DNA from: an uncultured Aureispira sp.
GTDB taxonomy: Bacteria > Bacteroidota > Bacteroidia > Chitinophagales > Saprospiraceae
Direction: 5' to 3'
DNA: 32,772 nt
Assembly (NCBI GenBank): GCA_937942475.1
Contig: CALDEP010000211.1
Coordinates: forward strand, 1 to 32,772
The notes under the pieces were generated by a model that was given only the letters and a program-made list of their open reading frames with translations, did no database searches and was not told the origin of the DNA. This document shows, piece after piece, positions 6,759 through 24,020 of the stretch. Both the position numbers and the translations under genes were made by a program. The number at the start of each line of letters is the position of its first letter. Position 1 is the first letter of the stretch.

Positions 6759-6827
6759 TATGGCTCAATTGGAAGTTTTGTGGGAACTCAATATTTAGAA
6801 TCCTTTTTAATGTTATGAATCTAGATA

Positions 6828-6900
6828 TAAGTTTTAAGTAGAAAGTCGTTTATTATCAAAAGAAAACATACGACTTTCTACTTAAAACTTACGACTCATA
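6828..6900 (+). repeat. Palindromic element, family B copy 1
   Basis: A perfect 21-bp stem (6828-6848 with 6871-6891, arms beginning TAAGTTTTAAGTAG) has a 22-nt loop, followed by CGACTCATA. The second copy at 7624-7703 carries the same arms and the reverse complement of this loop, so the two copies are in opposite orientation on either side of the 19-residue-repeat gene. It could act as a transcription terminator for flanking genes or be a miniature mobile or REP-like element. Confidence 0.85.
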
Positions 6901-7017
6901 TAGTCGGATAAAGGTGCTTCTTTTTTTATGACCACAAAACTTGTTACTGAACCATTAATATTAATGTATAGGTCAAAAGTGGTTATCATTGAAAATATAT
7001 CCTTGGTTTAGGAATTT

Positions 7018-7111
7018 TTAGATCTTAGAACCCAAGTAAATTGGGGACTAAATCACTTCGTTTTTAGATCTTAGATACGAACCCCTATTACAGCTTAATG
7101 GGGTCTAGATT
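7018..7111 (+). repeat. Double-hairpin element, family C copy 1
   Basis: Two short hairpins follow each other: CCCAA (7031-7035) with TTGGG (7041-7045), extended by TTAG/CTAA, and ACCCC (7081-7085) with GGGGT (7100-7104), extended by ATT/AAT. Both are framed by TTAGATCTTAGA-type words. The loop and right arm (AGCTTAATGGGGTCTA) are shared with the element at 14202-14296, which reads AGCTTAATAGGATCTA. It lies directly upstream of the 19-residue-repeat gene. The remainder of 6759-7132 shows nothing coding. Confidence 0.6.
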
Positions 7112-7132: not shown

Positions 7133-7543
7133 ATGAATTTAAAAATAAAAAGAGGCAGTGCTTCTACGGCAGAAGTAATTTATAATTGGAATGGAAAAAA
7201 ATTAATTGTAGGAAATGCTTCTTATGGAACGGTTGCTTATAATTTTGATGGGGCAACCATTCGAGAAGGAAATTCTAAGCACAACAAAGTTTTGTACAAT
7301 TGGGACGGAACCAATTTGCGTGTTGGAAACCAAAAGTCAGGGAATATTATTTTTAATTTTCATGACAATAAACTTGTCGAAGGAAGTGCCCCTACAAATG
7401 ATGTGATTTGTAATTGGCCCGATGGTTTGTTGCGCATGGGAGAGGAGGAAGAAGGAGATATTCGATACAATTGGGACGGAGATATTCCAGTTCCAATTAT
7501 TGCAATTGTATTAATGGAAGAAGGCGTCATTAAGCGAAGTTAA
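7133..7543 (+). CDS. Five-fold 19-residue tandem repeat protein
   Basis: No named family is recognised. The 136-residue product is almost entirely five tandem 19-residue repeats (17-35, 36-54, 55-73, 74-92, 93-111). The consensus is roughly [YF]N[WF]DGxxLRxGNxxxxxVI, for example YNWDGTNLRVGNQKSGNII. A half repeat precedes them, and a sixth YNWDG opens the C-terminal segment. The alternation of aromatic/Asn turns and short hydrophobic strands suggests a beta-solenoid or beta-roll. No signal peptide or transmembrane segment is present, so it is probably cytoplasmic. The ATG at 7133 is preceded by an A-rich stretch and no Shine-Dalgarno sequence. The gene is isolated, flanked by palindromes on both sides (6828-6900, 7018-7111 and 7624-7703). 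The clean repeat phase argues strongly that it is a real protein. Confidence 0.75.
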   Translation: MNLKIKRGSASTAEVIYNWNGKKLIVGNASYGTVAYNFDGATIREGNSKHNKVLYNWDGTNLRVGNQKSGNIIFNFHDNKLVEGSAPTNDVICNWPDGLLRMGEEEEGDIRYNWDGDIPVPIIAIVLMEEGVIKRS

Positions 7544-7623
7544 TCAATTGATTTCCTTCTCTGACAAACTTCTCACGAGTAAATCTTGTAGTAATAATTT
7601 AAACCACTTTTCTAGTAGACAGT

Positions 7624-7703
7624 ATGAGTCATAAGTTTTAAGTAGAAAATCGTAAGTTTTCTTTTGATAATAAACGACTTACGACTTTCTACTTAAAACT
7701 TAT
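7624..7703 (-). repeat. Palindromic element, family B copy 2 (inverted)
   Basis: A 27-bp stem with one mismatch (7631-7657 with 7677-7703) has a 19-nt loop. Its arms match copy 1 at 6828-6900, its loop is the reverse complement of copy 1's loop, and its left edge TATGAGTC matches the right edge of copy 1 (GACTCATA), so it is the same element in opposite orientation. It separates the convergent ends of the 19-residue-repeat gene and the VWA gene and may serve as a bidirectional terminator. Confidence 0.85.
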
Positions 7704-7775
7704 AGCCCAATTCATAGCTGTTAAGAGATAGCCTATGTTTTAAACTCCACACGACTTGCAAGAGAACCATTGATT

Positions 7776-9780: not shown

Positions 9781-9810
9781 GTTAATGCGTAGGTATTATT
9801 TAATAGTTCT

Positions 9811-9966
9811 AACTCATGTTACACATAAAACCAATTAGGCTGCTTAACATTAAGAAAATAGCTTGCCAAATAGGTTTTAATGTTGAATTTTGAATGCTTA
9901 ATTTTTAATGCCTTATTTTCATCGAAAAGGCATTAAACATTCAAAATTAAGCATTCAGCATTAAAA
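9811..9966 (-). repeat. Palindromic element, family A copy 1, with companion word
   Basis: An imperfect 40-bp hairpin (9875-9914 with 9927-9966) is built from repeated words such as TTAATG, TTGAAT and GCTTAATTTT. It is linked about 49 nt to its left to the word AACTCATGTTAC (9811-9822), the reverse complement of the word found to the right of copies 2 and 3. A further reverse copy of the word (AACTCATGTTACGCAA) lies at 10004-10019. The orientation is therefore opposite to copies 2 and 3. The stretch 9967-10089 also contains CCCGAAGGCTCACGAAGTA, which resembles part of the element at 25811-25985. Confidence 0.7.
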
Positions 9967-10089
9967 TCGTATTTTTTAAGTAAAAGTAAGTTTAATATTT
10001 CTTAACTCATGTTACGCAAAAAATAATTATGCTGATAACCCGAAGGCTCACGAAGTAAAATATCAGAATTAATCTATAAACTTGTTCTG

Positions 10090-10240
10090 AATGTTGAAGG
10101 CTTAATTTTTAATGTTGAATGCTTTATAGCACAACAAACATTAAAAATTTAGCATTAAGAATTCAACATTAAAATAGTTCTTAAATAAGTAACGATGAGT
10201 TTTAATACTAAAAAAAAAAGGTTATTGCGTAACATCAGTT
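10090..10240 (+). repeat. Palindromic element, family A copy 2, with companion word
   Basis: Left arm AATGTTGAAGGCTTAATT (from 10090) pairs imperfectly with the right arm ending ATTCAACATT at 10170, with TTTTTAATGTT/AACATTAAAAA inside. The loop GAATGCTTTATAGCACAAC closely resembles that of copy 3. After 46 nt comes GTTATTGCGTAACATCAGTT (10221-10240), which matches 24001-24020 at 19 of 20 positions. The remainder of the gap to 10346 shows nothing else. Confidence 0.75.
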
Positions 10241-10346
10241 CTTAAAATGTTCTTGTGTAAATCAGTTTCTAAGTAGAACGTGAATATAGTACTTTAGTTT
10301 GAAATGCAGACTTGATTCTTGAAAATGCTTGGATTGAGCCCTAACT

Positions 10347-14201: not shown

Positions 14202-14296
14202 AGATCAGATCGCTTTGCTTTTAGATTTTAGATCGCTGTGCTCTTAGATATTAGACCCTATAAAGCTTAATAGGATCTAATATCTAAGATCTAAAG
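14202..14296 (+). repeat. Palindromic element, family C copy 2
   Basis: A 19-bp stem with one mismatch (14243-14261 with 14270-14288; arm starts CTTAGATATTAGA) has an 8-nt loop AAAGCTTA. It is preceded by two TTAGATC/TTTGC-type words and shares AGCTTAAT(A/G)GG(A/G)TCTA with the element at 7018-7111. It sits inside the TerY-PP2C gap (14035-14375) with no T-run, so it is not a classical terminator. It could attenuate transcription, stabilise an mRNA end, or be a dispersed repeat. The rest of the gap shows nothing. Confidence 0.65.
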
Positions 14297-17577: not shown

Positions 17578-17755
17578 TTGCTCTTAAACAATGACCAAAC
17601 TGTTCTTAAAATAGTGGTTACAAGTGTGTTTTGAACCCATAAATGAACACTTGTCTATTGTCATTTATTGATAAATTGTAATTCAAGATATAGGAATCTT
17701 TCTAAAAAAATGCTATCTTAAAGTTCACTTCAATTCAAACTTCCCTAAGTCATTG

Positions 17756-20700
17756 ATGCATCGAAAATACCTCCATATCGTTTTTGCCTACTTGCTTTTC
17801 TTTATTTGCCTGCCATCTTATGTTTCTGCAACACATATGGTAGGGGGCGAAATTAATTATCGTTGCCTAGGAAACGACCAGTATGAGATCATGGTAACGG
17901 TTTTTCGAGATTGTGACACAGGCGTACCTTGGTTTGATAGTCCTGCTTCAGTAGGCGTTTTTGATCTGAATGATTCACTGCTGTATGATTTGAGATTGCA
18001 GTTAAGAAACAACGATACCTTGGATTTGAATTTAACCGATCCTTGTTTAGTTGCGCCACCAAATGTTTGTATTCACACCACTACTTATATAGATACCGTA
18101 ACCTTGCCCTTTCAGGCAGGAGGGTATCAAATTGTTTATCAGCGTTGTTGCCGAAATCAAGATATTGTTAATATAGTAGCGCCAACGTCAACAGGCGCAA
18201 CCTATTCTTCTTATATTTCAGAAGAGGCTTTGTTGGCTTGCAATAGCAGTGCCCGATTTGTAGAGTGGCCTCCTGTTTATGTTTGTGCAGGCGTGCCGAT
18301 TGTTTACGATCATTCAGCTTTGGATGTGGATGGCGATTCTATTGTTTATGAATTGTGTACGCCTTTTACGGGAGCAACACCGAGCCAATCTAGACCACAA
18401 CCGCCCAATAATCCGCCTTATAATCCAGTGACATGGCAACCACCTTATAGTGTAGATAACATGTTAGGAGGTCCAGATTCCTTGATTATTGACCCTGTAA
18501 CAGGTTTGTTAACAGGAACGCCAGATATTATAGGCGTTTTTGTGGTAGGCGTATGTGCCAAAGAATATAAAAATGGCGTCCTTATTTCAACTACTCGAAG
18601 AGATTTTCAATATGTAGTTGGTGTCTGTGGTCGTTTGGTTTCTTCTGCCTTTTTTGCGCCAGATATTCAGTGTGATAATTCCTTGATTGTTAATTTTCAG
18701 AACAATAGTGCTTCCTTAGGGACAGGTTTTATTTGGTCTTTTGGAGATCCTGCAACCAATGCTACGTCAACCTTTCCAAACCCTGCTTACATTTACCCAG
18801 ATACAGGACGTTATACGATTACTTTAATTGCTGATCCTGGAACTTTATGTGCCGATACAGCAACCCAAGATATTTATTTACAGTACGAATCTATTGACGC
18901 TAATTTTGATGTGACAACAGCAAATTGTACCGATTCCTTTTTCTTAGATGTGACCGATTTGACCATTGATAGTATTAGTAATATTGTACAATGGGATTGG
19001 GATTTTGGAAATGGTTTAACCGATACGATTCCTTATCCTTCTACGGTCTACAACAGTTCGGGGGTTTATATTATCAACCTAAATGTGCTAGCAGCAAATG
19101 GCTGTACGGCTAGTTACTCAGATACATTAGTACTTGATCTGCCCGTAATTTTTAGTGCCGATACCATAGGAATTTGTGCAGGCGATAGCAGTGTTGTTTT
19201 AAATCCAGGAGGAAATCCCAACCATGTTTATCAATGGTCACCAGCAACAGGTTTGAGTAGTGCCACGGTGGCAAGTCCTGTGGCGAGTCCTTTAGGACCA
19301 ACGACTTATTCGGTCACGGTAACTGCTCCAAATGGAATAGATACCTGTATTTTAGAAAAAACGATTACGGTTGTTTTACCGCCAGCCCTTACTTTAGATG
19401 TCATTAGAGACACGATTACTTGTCAAGATTCTATTTCTATTGTTGCTTTTAGTAATAATGCTCAAATTATAGAATGGTTTGTTGATCCTTCTTTTAATAC
19501 GGTTTTGGCTACTGGAGATAGCGTTCGCTTAGCTGTTGGAGTCGCTACTCGGATTTATGTAAGAGCAACAGATTTTGCAGGTTGTTCTATTTTGGATACC
19601 GTTGATATTATCAGAAGAAATACCCCAATTATCGTAGATTGGACCTATAGTTTATTGACTTGTGATTCGACGTTTACCGTGCAATTTACAGACCAAACGA
19701 TTGATAATTCAGGAGGCGCACTTGCCACCTGGTCTTGGGATTTTGGAGATGCTAATAACAGCAATCAACAGAATCCGACACACATATACCAGCAATCAGG
19801 CAATTATATAGTTACGTTGGATGTCGTGACAATAGATGCTTGTATAGGGCGTTTTCAAGATATAGTTACGGTAAGTATTCCACAGTTGACCAATGGAGAT
19901 ACCCTTGGAGTTTGTCAAGGAAATAGCTCCGTACAGCTCAACCCAAATGGAAATGCTGCCTTGCAATATCTATGGTCTCCAGCAGCGACGCTAAGTAGTG
20001 CCACAGCCGTAAGCCCAGTTGCTACGCCAGTCGTTCCGACTACTTATACGGTTACGATTACAGCAATTAATGGTTTAGATACCTGTATTAATATACAACA
20101 AGTACATGTTAATTTTCCGCCACCAGTCACGGTAACAATTCCACCATTGACGGTTTATTGTGGTAATACAGTTGATTTGATAGCGAGTAGTCCTACAGGA
20201 ATCTTTTATGAGTGGGCAGGAGATCCTAGTTTTAGTACAATAATAGGAACAGGAAATCCCTACACCGCTATCCCAACTACTTTTCCTTACGCAGGCTATT
20301 ATGTTCGAGCAACCGATCCTTATGGTTGTACTGCAACCGCCTTCGCCTTGGTCGAGCAAAATCAAATTCCAGTCAATGTTAACTTTAGTTATCAATCTTT
20401 GGGTTGTTCAGATACCATTGCGATACAATTTACCGACTTAACGTCAGATACCGCTCTAAGCCCTATTTCGGCTTGGTTGTGGACGACTTCAGATGGGCAA
20501 AGTTCGACCCAACAAAATCCAATATTAACTTTTACGCAAAGTCAAGCCACCATAATTAGTTTGCAAGTAACGCTAGCAAATGGTTGTACAGGAATATTAA
20601 CAGACACTTTAGCCTTGAATATAGCTTCCTTAACAACCGATTCAACGGTTATTTTATGTAATGGAGATTCTACCTTAATCTTAAATCCAGGCGGAAATCC

Positions 20701-23700
20701 AAACTTAACGTATCAATGGTCACCAGCCGGATTTCTGTCTAGCACTAGTGCTACTTCACCCGTTGGAACCGTGCCGAATACACCTTTTACCTATACCGTA
20801 AGTATAACAGGAACGAGTGCCATTGATACCTGTATTGCCATTCATAATATAACGGTTGTTCAGGCGCCTCCAATTACAATAGAAGTACCAAAAGATACGA
20901 TTGTTTGTGGCGGAACCTTTAACGTTCAAGCAAATATTAGCAATGCGACACAAATAGATTGGTCTTTTAGTCCAAGCTTTAATCCAATTGCGATCTCCAA
21001 TATCAATAACTTTTTTGTAGGAATACCAGGTGCACCATTTAACTTATTTATCTATGTCAGAGCAACCGACCAATACGGCTGTACGGCAGAAGATACCGTT
21101 AAAATTTATCGACGAAACATACCAATTCCAACTAGTTTTATAACACAAGTAAATTCCTGTGACGATACGCTAGATGTTAACTTTATTAATACAACAAGCT
21201 TTCCCGCAGGAACACAATTGCAAGGCTATGTTTGGAATTTTGGCAATGGAACGACCACTTATACCACAAATGCACTGGTGCAATATCCTTCTAGCGGTGT
21301 TCATATCGTTAGCTTGACGGCAACAGCAACCAATGGTTGTACAGGAACGTTTGTCGATACCTTGGATTATAATTTGCCCATTATCAACTCTAGTGACAGC
21401 ATCGGTTTGTGTGATTTAGATTCCATCCAGTTGAATATAGGAGGCGATCCCAACTTAATGTATCAATGGTCGCCTGCAACAGGTTTGAGCAGTACTAATA
21501 TTGCCAGTCCAATCGCCAGTCCAGCAACAACGACACTTTATACCGTAACGGTTACGGCACCAAATGGGGGGGATACCTGTGAGTTGGTGCATACGATTTT
21601 GGTAGGCGTGGACAGTTTTATTTTTGAAGCAATGGACGATACCGTTTTGTGTGTTAACCAAATTGAGTTAAATGTAAATGCGCCAGATGCTGCTTCTGTT
21701 GAATGGGCTTTGGATCGAAATTTCAACCTAATTATAGGAGCAGGAACGACTTTAGCGACCAATGTCAATGATGCTCGGTGGTTCTATGTTCGAGGGCAAA
21801 GTAATTTTGGTTGTCAAGGCTTGGATTCTGTTTTTGTTAATTATCGAGGGAATGATATTCCAATTGATTTTAGAATGATCCCGCTTAATTGTGGCGATTC
21901 CTTAGTCGTGCAATTTCAAGATATATCAGGAGATACTTTAATTACCAATTGGAATTGGGATTTAGGCAATGGGCAAACTTCCACGGCACAAAATCCAATA
22001 ACGACCTATTATGCAGATTCCAATTATACCATCAATTTACAAATTCAAATAATAGGAAACTGTACAGGACAAGTAAGCAAACCTTTAATTGCTCAAATTC
22101 CAGTATTAGAAGTGCCTAATAATAATCTAGCGACTTGTGGCAACGATTCCATTTTATTGAATATTCAAACGAATCCAAATTTGACCTATGTTTGGTCGCC
22201 AGGACTTGGGCTTTCAGATTCTACGATTGCCAACCCAACGGTTTTAACAACAGTAAATACCACTTATACTGTTCGAGTCTATGGCTATTCTAATTTTGGA
22301 GGCGTCTTAGATACCTGTTGGCTAGAGGATTCTATTCATGTAGCCGTTCAGCCTGCACCAAGCGTTCAAATTCAAGGAGATACCATTACCTGTGATACTA
22401 GTATTAATCTGACGGCAATTAGTCCTCAAATAACCACTTATGGCTGGTCCACGAATAGAGATTTTCAAACAATAGTTGATAACGATGCTTTGCTAACAAC
22501 AGGGCTTCCCAATGTGCAGAATATTTTTTATGTACAAGTACAAGATAGTTTTGGTTGTCGTGGAGTGGATTCAATATTAGTGTATAGACGGTCTGTTCAG
22601 CTAAATTTAGACCCGACTTATGTGAGTTGTGATGCCAATCCAGTTGCTTTGTGGGTGTCTAATAATAATCCTTCGGATACGCTCAATTATACTTGGTCGC
22701 CCAATACGATTATTTTAACAGGACAAGGAACGGACAGCATTACCATACAAGGACAAACCGCAGTTAATTTAACCGTAGTGGGAATCAATCAATTTGGTTG
22801 TATAGATTCTGTTGAAACTAGTGTCAGTATTGCGCCCCCCTTGAGTTTAAATGTACCTTTGGATACGATATTATGTCAACCCAATTTGACCTTAACGGCA
22901 AATAGCAACCAAAGTGTGCAGTATATTTGGTCGGATCAGATTAATTTTAACAATATTCTAGGACAAAATCCAAGCCTACAAACCAACGTTGTGAACAATC
23001 AACACGTTTACTATGTACAGGTGGAGGACAGTTTAGGATGTACTAAAGTGGATTCTATTCTTGTGGGGTATTACCCTGTAGATATAATTTTAGATTCAGT
23101 GGCATTAATTTGTACAACAGCACCCGTTCAATTGGTTGCAACAAATTTGAATGCAAATGATTCTTTAACTTATCAATGGACTTCTACTGGCACGATTGTT
23201 TCGGGGCAAGGAACGGATAGTATTTTAGTAATGCCAACAGTGACGACAAATTATTCTGTGCTGGCTCAAAATCAATATGGATGTACTTCAACGACACAAA
23301 CATTGGTCAGTATATCGTCTAGCAATCCAGGGCTTTCTATACAGGCAGACCTAGATACGGTTTATGCAGGAAACGAGGCACAATTATTAGCAACACAGCA
23401 AGCAGGGTATGTTTATACTTGGAATGCAGATCCTACTTTGAGCGAAGATTCAATTTACAATCCAATTGCAACACCAGAAGGAACAACAACCTATTATTTA
23501 ACAATAACAGACGCTTTAGGGTGTACAACAGCGGATTCTATTATTATTTATGTTAATTTGCCAATCTGTGACGAACCGAATGTATTTGTTCCAAATGCTT
23601 TTTCGCCAGATGGAGATGGTTATAACGATATTATTTATGTAGAAGGGAACGCAATTACAGACATTAATTTTATAATTTACAACCGTTGGGGAGAGCAGGT

Positions 23701-23848
23701 GTTTAAATCAAATGATAAAAATATTGGCTGGGACGGGAAATTTAAAGGAAAAGATTGCCTACCAGATGTCTATGGTTATTATATGCAATGCCGATGTTTG
23801 GATGGCAATGAATTGATAAAAAAAGGCAACATAACTTTGTTGAGATAG
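17756..23848 (+). CDS. Giant PKD/Ig-like gliding adhesin with CHU_C (T9SS type B) tail
   Basis: A cell-surface protein of about 2,030 residues. The ATG at 17756 is preferred over the in-frame TTG at 17753. The signal peptide is RKYLHIVFAYLLFFICLPSYVSA. An N-terminal domain (about 26-295) opens with ATHMVGGEINYRC, typical of Bacteroidota gliding proteins. One PKD-like domain follows, then five copies of a ~245-residue three-domain unit, described separately. Next come further Ig-like domains with Cys-Asp-Thr signatures, and a final CHU_C / gliding-motility C-terminal domain (about 1,937 to the end; VFVPNAFSPDGDGYND, IYNRWGEQVF, GWDGKFKG). The tail is the type B signal for secretion by the type IX system. 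The downstream PorP/SprF gene fits, since such cargo often needs a SprF-like partner. The specific ligand is unknown. The short 17578-17755 spacer shows no clear promoter. Confidence 0.93.
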   Translation: MHRKYLHIVFAYLLFFICLPSYVSATHMVGGEINYRCLGNDQYEIMVTVFRDCDTGVPWFDSPASVGVFDLNDSLLYDLRLQLRNNDTLDLNLTDPCLVAPPNVCIHTTTYIDTVTLPFQAGGYQIVYQRCCRNQDIVNIVAPTSTGATYSSYISEEALLACNSSARFVEWPPVYVCAGVPIVYDHSALDVDGDSIVYELCTPFTGATPSQSRPQPPNNPPYNPVTWQPPYSVDNMLGGPDSLIIDPVTGLLTGTPDIIGVFVVGVCAKEYKNGVLISTTRRDFQYVVGVCGRLVSSAFFAPDIQCDNSLIVNFQNNSASLGTGFIWSFGDPATNATSTFPNPAYIYPDTGRYTITLIADPGTLCADTATQDIYLQYESIDANFDVTTANCTDSFFLDVTDLTIDSISNIVQWDWDFGNGLTDTIPYPSTVYNSSGVYIINLNVLAANGCTASYSDTLVLDLPVIFSADTIGICAGDSSVVLNPGGNPNHVYQWSPATGLSSATVASPVASPLGPTTYSVTVTAPNGIDTCILEKTITVVLPPALTLDVIRDTITCQDSISIVAFSNNAQIIEWFVDPSFNTVLATGDSVRLAVGVATRIYVRATDFAGCSILDTVDIIRRNTPIIVDWTYSLLTCDSTFTVQFTDQTIDNSGGALATWSWDFGDANNSNQQNPTHIYQQSGNYIVTLDVVTIDACIGRFQDIVTVSIPQLTNGDTLGVCQGNSSVQLNPNGNAALQYLWSPAATLSSATAVSPVATPVVPTTYTVTITAINGLDTCINIQQVHVNFPPPVTVTIPPLTVYCGNTVDLIASSPTGIFYEWAGDPSFSTIIGTGNPYTAIPTTFPYAGYYVRATDPYGCTATAFALVEQNQIPVNVNFSYQSLGCSDTIAIQFTDLTSDTALSPISAWLWTTSDGQSSTQQNPILTFTQSQATIISLQVTLANGCTGILTDTLALNIASLTTDSTVILCNGDSTLILNPGGNPNLTYQWSPAGFLSSTSATSPVGTVPNTPFTYTVSITGTSAIDTCIAIHNITVVQAPPITIEVPKDTIVCGGTFNVQANISNATQIDWSFSPSFNPIAISNINNFFVGIPGAPFNLFIYVRATDQYGCTAEDTVKIYRRNIPIPTSFITQVNSCDDTLDVNFINTTSFPAGTQLQGYVWNFGNGTTTYTTNALVQYPSSGVHIVSLTATATNGCTGTFVDTLDYNLPIINSSDSIGLCDLDSIQLNIGGDPNLMYQWSPATGLSSTNIASPIASPATTTLYTVTVTAPNGGDTCELVHTILVGVDSFIFEAMDDTVLCVNQIELNVNAPDAASVEWALDRNFNLIIGAGTTLATNVNDARWFYVRGQSNFGCQGLDSVFVNYRGNDIPIDFRMIPLNCGDSLVVQFQDISGDTLITNWNWDLGNGQTSTAQNPITTYYADSNYTINLQIQIIGNCTGQVSKPLIAQIPVLEVPNNNLATCGNDSILLNIQTNPNLTYVWSPGLGLSDSTIANPTVLTTVNTTYTVRVYGYSNFGGVLDTCWLEDSIHVAVQPAPSVQIQGDTITCDTSINLTAISPQITTYGWSTNRDFQTIVDNDALLTTGLPNVQNIFYVQVQDSFGCRGVDSILVYRRSVQLNLDPTYVSCDANPVALWVSNNNPSDTLNYTWSPNTIILTGQGTDSITIQGQTAVNLTVVGINQFGCIDSVETSVSIAPPLSLNVPLDTILCQPNLTLTANSNQSVQYIWSDQINFNNILGQNPSLQTNVVNNQHVYYVQVEDSLGCTKVDSILVGYYPVDIILDSVALICTTAPVQLVATNLNANDSLTYQWTSTGTIVSGQGTDSILVMPTVTTNYSVLAQNQYGCTSTTQTLVSISSSNPGLSIQADLDTVYAGNEAQLLATQQAGYVYTWNADPTLSEDSIYNPIATPEGTTTYYLTITDALGCTTADSIIIYVNLPICDEPNVFVPNAFSPDGDGYNDIIYVEGNAITDINFIIYNRWGEQVFKSNDKNIGWDGKFKGKDCLPDVYGYYMQCRCLDGNELIKKGNITLLR
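18898..22605 (+). repeat. Five tandem ~740-bp coding repeats (three-domain unit)
   Basis: Within the adhesin, a three-part unit recurs at about 18898, 19630, 20371, 21132 and 21862, ending near 22605 (spacings 730-761 bp). Each unit has a PKD-type domain (W-x-W-D-[FL]-G-[ND]-G or close variants), then an Ig-like domain with C-x-G-[ND]-S...LNPGGNP-type and WSP...LSS motifs. A third Ig-like domain with DT-x-x-C...W...D-x-x-F and a C-terminal GC follows. The copies are clearly diverged at DNA level, so this is old internal duplication rather than recent slippage. Confidence 0.8.
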
Positions 23849-23850
23849 AC

Positions 23851-24020
23851 TTAATCATGTTGAATTTTTAATGTCGAATGCCTCATAGCAGAACAAACAT
23901 TAAAAATTTGGAATTAAGCATTCAACATTAAGATAGTGTTTAAAAAAATCAACGGAGTATTATTTTATTACACAGTGTATTTAATAGCAACATAAAATAA
24001 GTTATTGCGTAAGATCAGTT
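23851..24020 (+). repeat. Palindromic element, family A copy 3, with companion word
   Basis: An imperfect hairpin (about 23851-23932) has words ATGTTGAATTTTTAATG on the left and ACATTAAAAATTT...TTCAACATTAA on the right, with the loop GAATGCCTCATAGCAGAACA nearly repeating that of copy 2. The word GTTATTGCGTAAGATCAGTT follows at 24001-24020. It starts directly after the adhesin stop codon and may double as its transcript end. Confidence 0.75.

Follow-up and report, generated by a model that had tools for sequence, protein, structure and literature searches.

A MITE family with defined ends and 7-bp target duplications in an uncultured Aureispira, and a palindromic core common to a second MITE family

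The short word that accompanies several AT-rich palindromes in the window (the whole stretch of 32,772 nucleotides analysed here) is the terminal inverted repeat (TIR) of a MITE, which we name MITE-A; its ends read CTSATGTTACGCAA...TTGCGTAACATSAG and the word is normally present at both of them. The repeat as a whole is very probably a non-autonomous DNA transposon with TIRs, built around a palindromic core common to another family, MITE-B, and moved by the transposase of an IS that has the same ends. A first-pass annotation of this DNA had described a composite repeat, an AT-rich palindrome with a fixed companion word, and the words and its three palindromes were found where it placed them. 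The resulting features of the window are as follows.

9806-9812, no strand: left target duplication of copy 1, GTTCTAA
9813-10265, forward strand: MITE-A copy 1, older and interrupted by copy 2; its two pieces, 9813-10005 and 10246-10265 (duplication counted once), align with copy 2 when joined
9875-9966, no strand: AT-rich palindrome of copy 1, from an inverted-repeat search
9999-10005, no strand: left target duplication of copy 2, TTCTTAA (7 bp)
10006-10238, forward strand: MITE-A copy 2, complete, 233 bp between target duplications, both TIRs present
10006-10019, reverse strand: left TIR of copy 2, reading outward TTGCGTAACATGAG
10085-10175, forward strand: AT-rich palindrome core of copy 2
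10225-10238, forward strand: right TIR of copy 2, TTGCGTAACATCAG, the word earlier assigned to this copy
10239-10245, no strand: right target duplication of copy 2, TTCTTAA (7 bp)
10251-10265, forward strand: right TIR of copy 1, TCTTGTGTAAATCAG, degenerate
10266-10272, no strand: right target duplication of copy 1, TTTCTAA
23853-24018, forward strand: MITE-A copy 3, lacking its left end; approximate start
23949-23961, forward strand: word TCAACGGAGTATT inside copy 3, identical to the end of repeat family C
24005-24018, forward strand: right TIR of copy 3, TTGCGTAAGATCAG

Copy 2 reads CTCATGTTACGCAA ... TTGCGTAACATCAG with a perfect TTCTTAA on both flanks, and a 92% identical relative (query positions 2-237) lies elsewhere in the same genome. 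Its left TIR is the word at 10004 that the first-pass annotation had taken to be solitary. Copy 2 is inserted into the older copy 1, because excision of copy 2 together with one duplication restores an alignable copy 1, which then matches copy 2 from end to end (score 175). The flanks of copy 1 agree at six of seven positions. Only one word had been credited to this copy; the second, at its right end, was overlooked because copy 2 had inserted ahead of it. Neither copy contains an ORF of at least 80 aa (window ORF search), and the window has no tRNA and no Rfam match at gathering thresholds.

For copy 3, the left end as first mapped was set aside since it ran into the upstream ORF. That ORF, of 2031 aa at 17753-23848, has internal repeats at a spacing of ~740 bp, and the remainder of copy 3 lies closely 3' of its stop codon. 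The family C end word within copy 3 is possibly the remnant of a nested insertion. Elsewhere in the window, two long hairpins at 6823-6905 and 7618-7704 (TAAGTTTTAAGTAGAAAGTCG...) are also inverted copies of each other and flank an ORF at 7133-7543; they form a palindrome family distinct from the MITE-A core. A further hairpin, TCTTAGATATTAGACCCTATAAAG, occupies 14242-14289 and has a partly inverted match at 7060-7090.

The identification of the word as a TIR comes from the wider genome. The word as first described, GTTATTGCGTAASATCAGTT, is present in the window, where the four words found at up to three mismatches are mildly unusual (1 of 100 shuffles reached four). Across the source genome (5.97 Mb, 494 contigs), which is probably that of a marine bacterium, the pattern TTGCGTAASATSAGTT at up to two mismatches gave 348 matches, compared with 30 for a reversed control. 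The words form outward-facing inverted pairs ~200 bp apart, and in a sample made up of the window, 60 stretches and 30 search loci (up to three mismatches) there were 76 distinct paired elements, which ranged from 84 to 659 bp and in 69 cases measured 195-310 bp, together with 57 unpaired words. From this outward-facing, inverted pairing it follows that the word is a terminal inverted repeat.

Palindromes were sampled with a profile in 578 kb of stretches chosen around matches, not at random, and words were scored within 160 nt at up to four mismatches. Of 80 palindromes, 51 lay between two words, 23 had a word on one side only and six had none; the gaps between word and palindrome concentrate at 45-54 nt, and another group lies around 66-90 nt. 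In this sample the two parts thus co-occur at consistent distance, contrary to the refuting condition that the first-pass annotation had set; the single fixed side it described gives way to an inverted word on each side. Its central claim, one element with defined ends and not random AT-rich folding, is borne out by this co-occurrence and by genome counts far above control. The idea that AT-rich, low-complexity intergenic DNA yields look-alike palindromes and words by chance draws on a core built from a small vocabulary (TTGAAT, TTAATG); it is refuted by the control counts, with numbers, paired ends and duplications all far above controls, and we assign it next to no probability.

The plan of MITE-A is therefore one of TIRs of 13-16 bp (CTSATGTTACGCAA), ~50 nt of subterminal sequence on each side and an AT-rich palindromic core of ~85-90 nt. 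Most copies measure 195-310 bp, about 235 bp being usual, and short copies of 84-106 bp occur, of which at least the 84-bp copy is without a palindrome. The source genome holds at least 150 palindrome cores, families A and B taken together. MITE-A is thus short, non-coding and TIR-bounded, with many dispersed copies. REPs (repetitive extragenic palindromes) are described as small palindromes of 20-40 bp (PMC3733652), which does not fit the palindrome of MITE-A, at ~85-90 nt and enclosed by TIRs and target duplications.

Target-site duplications, which the first-pass annotation had named as something to look for, flank many copies. Exact duplications of 7 bp were found at 39 of 95 MITE-A copies (2.86 expected) and of 8 bp at 9 of 95 (0.24 expected); no copy belongs to both classes, and 47 of the 95 have neither. 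The target consensus is TTANTAA, and the ends of the element begin with 5'-CT. A 3-bp duplication (39 of 76 copies, 9.0 expected) was considered and rejected as the middle of the 7-bp duplication; this reading had arisen because the TIR had been taken to include the outer AA/TT of the target. A position-by-position test assigns these outer bases to the target, and in a set of IS copies from Polaromonas (described below) the outermost bases vary in concert with the target.

MITE-A copies are intergenic. None of 55 element midpoints falls within ORFs of at least 100 aa, which make up 75% of the bases in the stretches. The gene pairs that hold an element, defined by ORFs and not by curated genes, comprise 29 tandem, 8 divergent and 5 convergent pairs (n = 42), and all gene pairs comprise 257, 45 and 52, respectively (n = 354). 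At the window site, the neighbouring gene has no such element in its 420 upstream bases in three related genomes, where the protein it encodes is 95% (G004 and G008) or 99% (G001) identical. The intergenic region of G001 is otherwise different at this site, and the predicted empty site is only 29/40 identical to G004 across the junction, making that alignment supportive, not decisive, for a putative insertion. At another element (L214:5553), G004 homology ends near the insertion point and the other side has diverged.

Intergenic placement, together with a strong predicted hairpin, would also be expected of a non-mobile regulatory element or terminator, in which the palindrome folds as an RNA hairpin where genes end and the word belongs to the same signal. 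The arms of the core do co-vary: among 35 A cores (of 65 eligible) and four B cores, four pairs and 20 cells had both sides changed, with the pairs reached in 29 of 500 shuffles, the cells in 0 of 500 and slid controls giving at most four cells. Because the shuffles ignore the relatedness of the copies, this co-variation is suggestive only, and it fits either selection for a hairpin or repeated quasi-palindrome correction during replication. Such correction in replication is a known mutational process. Target duplications and nested insertion nevertheless point to mobility, convergent gene pairs are not enriched among the pairs that hold an element (5/42 against 52/354), and the 84-106 bp copies include at least one that has no palindrome at all. 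We therefore consider a terminator very improbable as an account of the repeat; a regulatory side effect of the palindrome in a mobile MITE-A is possible.

The palindrome is not confined to MITE-A. Four of the six word-less palindromes sit in a second family, MITE-B, with ends ATGCGAATCAAGRGCTAAAA and a length of ~220 bp (examples in the source genome: L219:5320-5542, L241:8361-8582, L201:9674-9896 and L218:4346-4567); of the other two, one is bordered by what by eye resembles a degenerate A end, and the second, 85 nt from a contig end, is ambiguous. MITE-B end words number 85, compared with 0 in the control, and 5-bp target duplications flank 15 of 25 copies (1.2 expected). The consensus cores of the two families are identical at 73 of 84 positions (score 124; the maximum of 500 shuffles was 50), and other palindromes of the window score 24-34. 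Beyond the core, the two families have unrelated 3' flanks (440 of 1,000 shuffles scored as high) and weakly similar 5' flanks (7 of 1,000). The composite idea of the first-pass annotation is in part borne out by the palindrome, a module that also occurs inside a second MITE family.

How the core came to lie within both families is open to two readings. The palindrome might be a mobile unit of its own, REP-like or IS200/IS605-like, that entered MITE-A and MITE-B separately: the same core stands in two families with unrelated ends, and the homology covers ~84 nt and none of the 3' flank. A core tree bears on this. It places 28 B cores of the source genome in one group (support 0.85) with a single A-labelled core, from L403; the cores of two G001 elements with B ends fall outside that group, as separate entries would give. 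The same two cores weaken the idea of a single A-to-B exchange of the core. Against a unit of its own, no clearly free-standing core was seen: 74 of the 80 palindromes lie beside a family-A word, and four of the six that do not are the B elements above. In a further sample of 61 palindromes (60 stretches picked from the listed matches), lax matching at five to six mismatches places an A or B end no more than 160 bp away from 57, some of the A labels therefore being chance, and the remaining four carry family-A ends with a one-base loss by eye.

The L403 element (L403:390-700, C65) combines a family-A end, on its left, with the core and flank of family B, on its right, as read by eye at this one locus, and is likely an A/B chimera. 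It is the most immediate hint that elements recombine, and the weakly alike 5' flanks also suggest such recombination, which would be the simplest route by which the core spread between MITE-A and MITE-B; we regard independent mobility of the palindrome as unlikely. More tentatively, the palindrome may be a distinct module, either under selection or self-perpetuating, by which a non-autonomous element can switch from one transposition system to another: one core would have recombined behind unrelated ends, of the 7-bp, IS4/IS701-like type in MITE-A and of the 5-bp type ATGCGAATCAAG in MITE-B, had its arms kept complementary by paired changes and been re-amplified under the new ends. For a parent of MITE-B, the transposase loci L089, L090 and L092 showed no convincing terminal repeats.

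An autonomous IS with ends of the MITE-A type is present in the source genome. A transposase search located it at L088 (1307-2455 including the outer bases, ~1.15 kb). Its DDE transposase has 361 aa, and its ends, CTCAAGTTACGCA and CTGAAGTTACGCA, deviate from the MITE end by one base. The bases that flank this IS match at only 5/7 positions and, read by eye, it shares only the TIR with MITE-A. The best NCBIfam model for its transposase is NF049921 (IS701_2), at 322.6 bits against a cut-off of 250, and it is the only IS of this group assembled in the source genome. At the loci of matches to DDE_Tnp_1 (PF01609) other than G000:C387, no family-A end word was found at up to three mismatches.

Relatives of this IS were sought in one genome per species, and 79 loci were kept. 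Among 13 full-length relatives outside Polaromonas with locatable ends, five have the exact MITE end on both sides: L108 (a Bacteroidetes MAG), L109 (Pontibacter), L115 (Latescibacterota), L143 (Pseudarcicella) and L144 (Chitinophagaceae). L112 and L113 have it on one side and are one base off on the other, and the rest carry variant ends such as CTGAAG or CTCACC; CTGACC also occurs in the IS group. Exact duplications in these 13 are of 7 bp in four, of 8 bp in two and of neither length in seven. The Polaromonas set comprises 32 places from 34 loci, all but one from strain CG9_12, with 7-bp duplications in 27/32 and 8-bp duplications in 4/32; a single IS accounts for all 32 places, and two that share flanks may be one duplicated locus. 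In Polaromonas sp. CG9_12 (loci L117-L164), one IS of the NF049921 group is present in ~30 near-identical copies, which lend themselves to a study of its target rule. Members of the group are 1104-1203 bp long, two outer bases per side included, and their ends begin with CT; the motif Y..R...E......K (YREK) is present in 17/17 transposases examined, two of which have an in-frame stop. In its ends, its target and the length of its duplications, MITE-A agrees with this IS group; the ends of the own-genome copy are one base off and those of five relatives exact.

The NCBIfam label of the group disagrees with its anatomy. In the available portion of PMC2266710, IS701 has 4-bp duplications, YACT ends, a length of 1400-1550 bp and the YREK tyrosine in 4/27 members; the putative helper resembles it in the NCBIfam model only and differs in its 7-8 bp duplications, 5'-CT ends, length of 1104-1203 bp and YREK. 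The IS4/ISPepr1 subgroup is described in the same portion with 5'-CT ends, 7-8 bp duplications, an AT-rich target, a complete YREK and a length of 1500-1600 bp, and in all of these except size the helper group is alike. By anatomy and published description, it fits IS4/ISPepr1 better than IS701, except in size.

In the mechanism that we propose, the DDE transposase of the same-ended IS ('IS701_2', with IS4/ISPepr1-like anatomy) most likely acts in trans on the MITE-A TIRs, the L088 element being a candidate for the actual helper. It would make a staggered cut of 7 bp, sometimes 8 bp, at TTANTAA-like sites; the element would then be inserted and gap repair would leave the target duplication.

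We next consider how MITE ends, interiors and transposase are distributed among 60 genomes including the source genome. At up to one mismatch, the word occurs 245 times in the source genome (control 2), 37 times in G001 (control 0) and 23 times in G002 (control 4), and 0-4 times in each of the other 57. The MITEs of G002, a related species, are 351-461 bp long with the same ends and an unrelated interior (eight read complete), and five of these eight have exact 7-bp duplications. Elements in G001 are ~180-220 bp, most with the palindrome, and a palindrome model found 46 in this genome and none in the other seven genomes of the genus. Since G002 shares the ends only and the palindrome is confined to the source genome and G001, MITE ends and interior have separate histories. 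G001 also holds two minimal elements of 40-44 bp (L095:1392-1431 and L103:1256-1299), which are almost only two TIRs back to back. Among the 60 genomes, NF049921 was above its cut-off in the source genome only; G001 and G002 yielded no transposase of this group, though both carry such MITEs. This absence is weak evidence, because in the draft assembly of G008 the termini of such an IS lie at four contig ends.

Other repeats were met in and around MITE-A. Repeat family C has ends TACTCCGTTGA...TCAACGGAGTA and measures 47-162 bp in seven pairs (loci L209:1482-1621, L237:646-807, L016:1175-1316 and L239:7322-7368), with apparent duplications of ~8-9 bp by eye in a few copies; one copy, at L016, is nested in a MITE-A. 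The GC-rich word GTAGCAGCGYAGCTAA has 145 matches in the source genome at up to one mismatch, compared with 0 for the reversed control, and is located in intergenic stretches (for example, L286-L295) and inside family A and C elements. A companion, CCGAAGGCTCACGAAG, was sighted 11 times, always inside MITE-A copies, and GCTCATGAGC six times inside and seven times outside them. These words may represent a small repeat of their own, one that inserts into MITEs.

The first-pass annotation knew of no named family that matches the repeat. The type of element, a MITE, is already known and of an ordinary kind; the family appears to be new as far as the literature searched goes, mostly without subscription journals and without ISfinder. 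In that literature, 'Aureispira' with 'MITE' returned nothing, no MITE with IS701-type ends was described in the accessible parts of the search on IS701 and MITE, and the end words as text appeared only in two papers, by their titles on a whelk and a reovirus.

Two published families offer a comparison, one of them from Cardinium, a Bacteroidota host. According to the available portion of its description (PMC9769881), MITECca01 of Cardinium is 240 bp long, has 169 copies and derives from ISCca4 of the IS982 family. MITE-A is like it in size, copy number, mostly intergenic position and ends shared with an IS; the parent of MITECca01 is a multicopy IS982, whereas MITE-A has IS4/IS701-like ends and a core common to another MITE family. 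The Chunjie MITE of Geobacter uraniireducens (178-235 bp; PMC10969869) resembles MITE-A in size range, intergenic copies and many partial copies; its host is different, and the available portion of that account gives neither end sequences nor a core-sharing family.

With these results, an unexplained 'composite repeat' becomes a transposon family with exact boundaries, and a target rule (TTANTAA, 7-8 bp) is now given for an IS group that occurs in several phyla. The work held two surprises, the mismatch of the IS701 label and the core common to two MITE families, and exchange of the core is the part that we find most interesting. If such exchange is general, it would offer a testable route by which MITEs acquire different ends and persist after their helper IS is lost.
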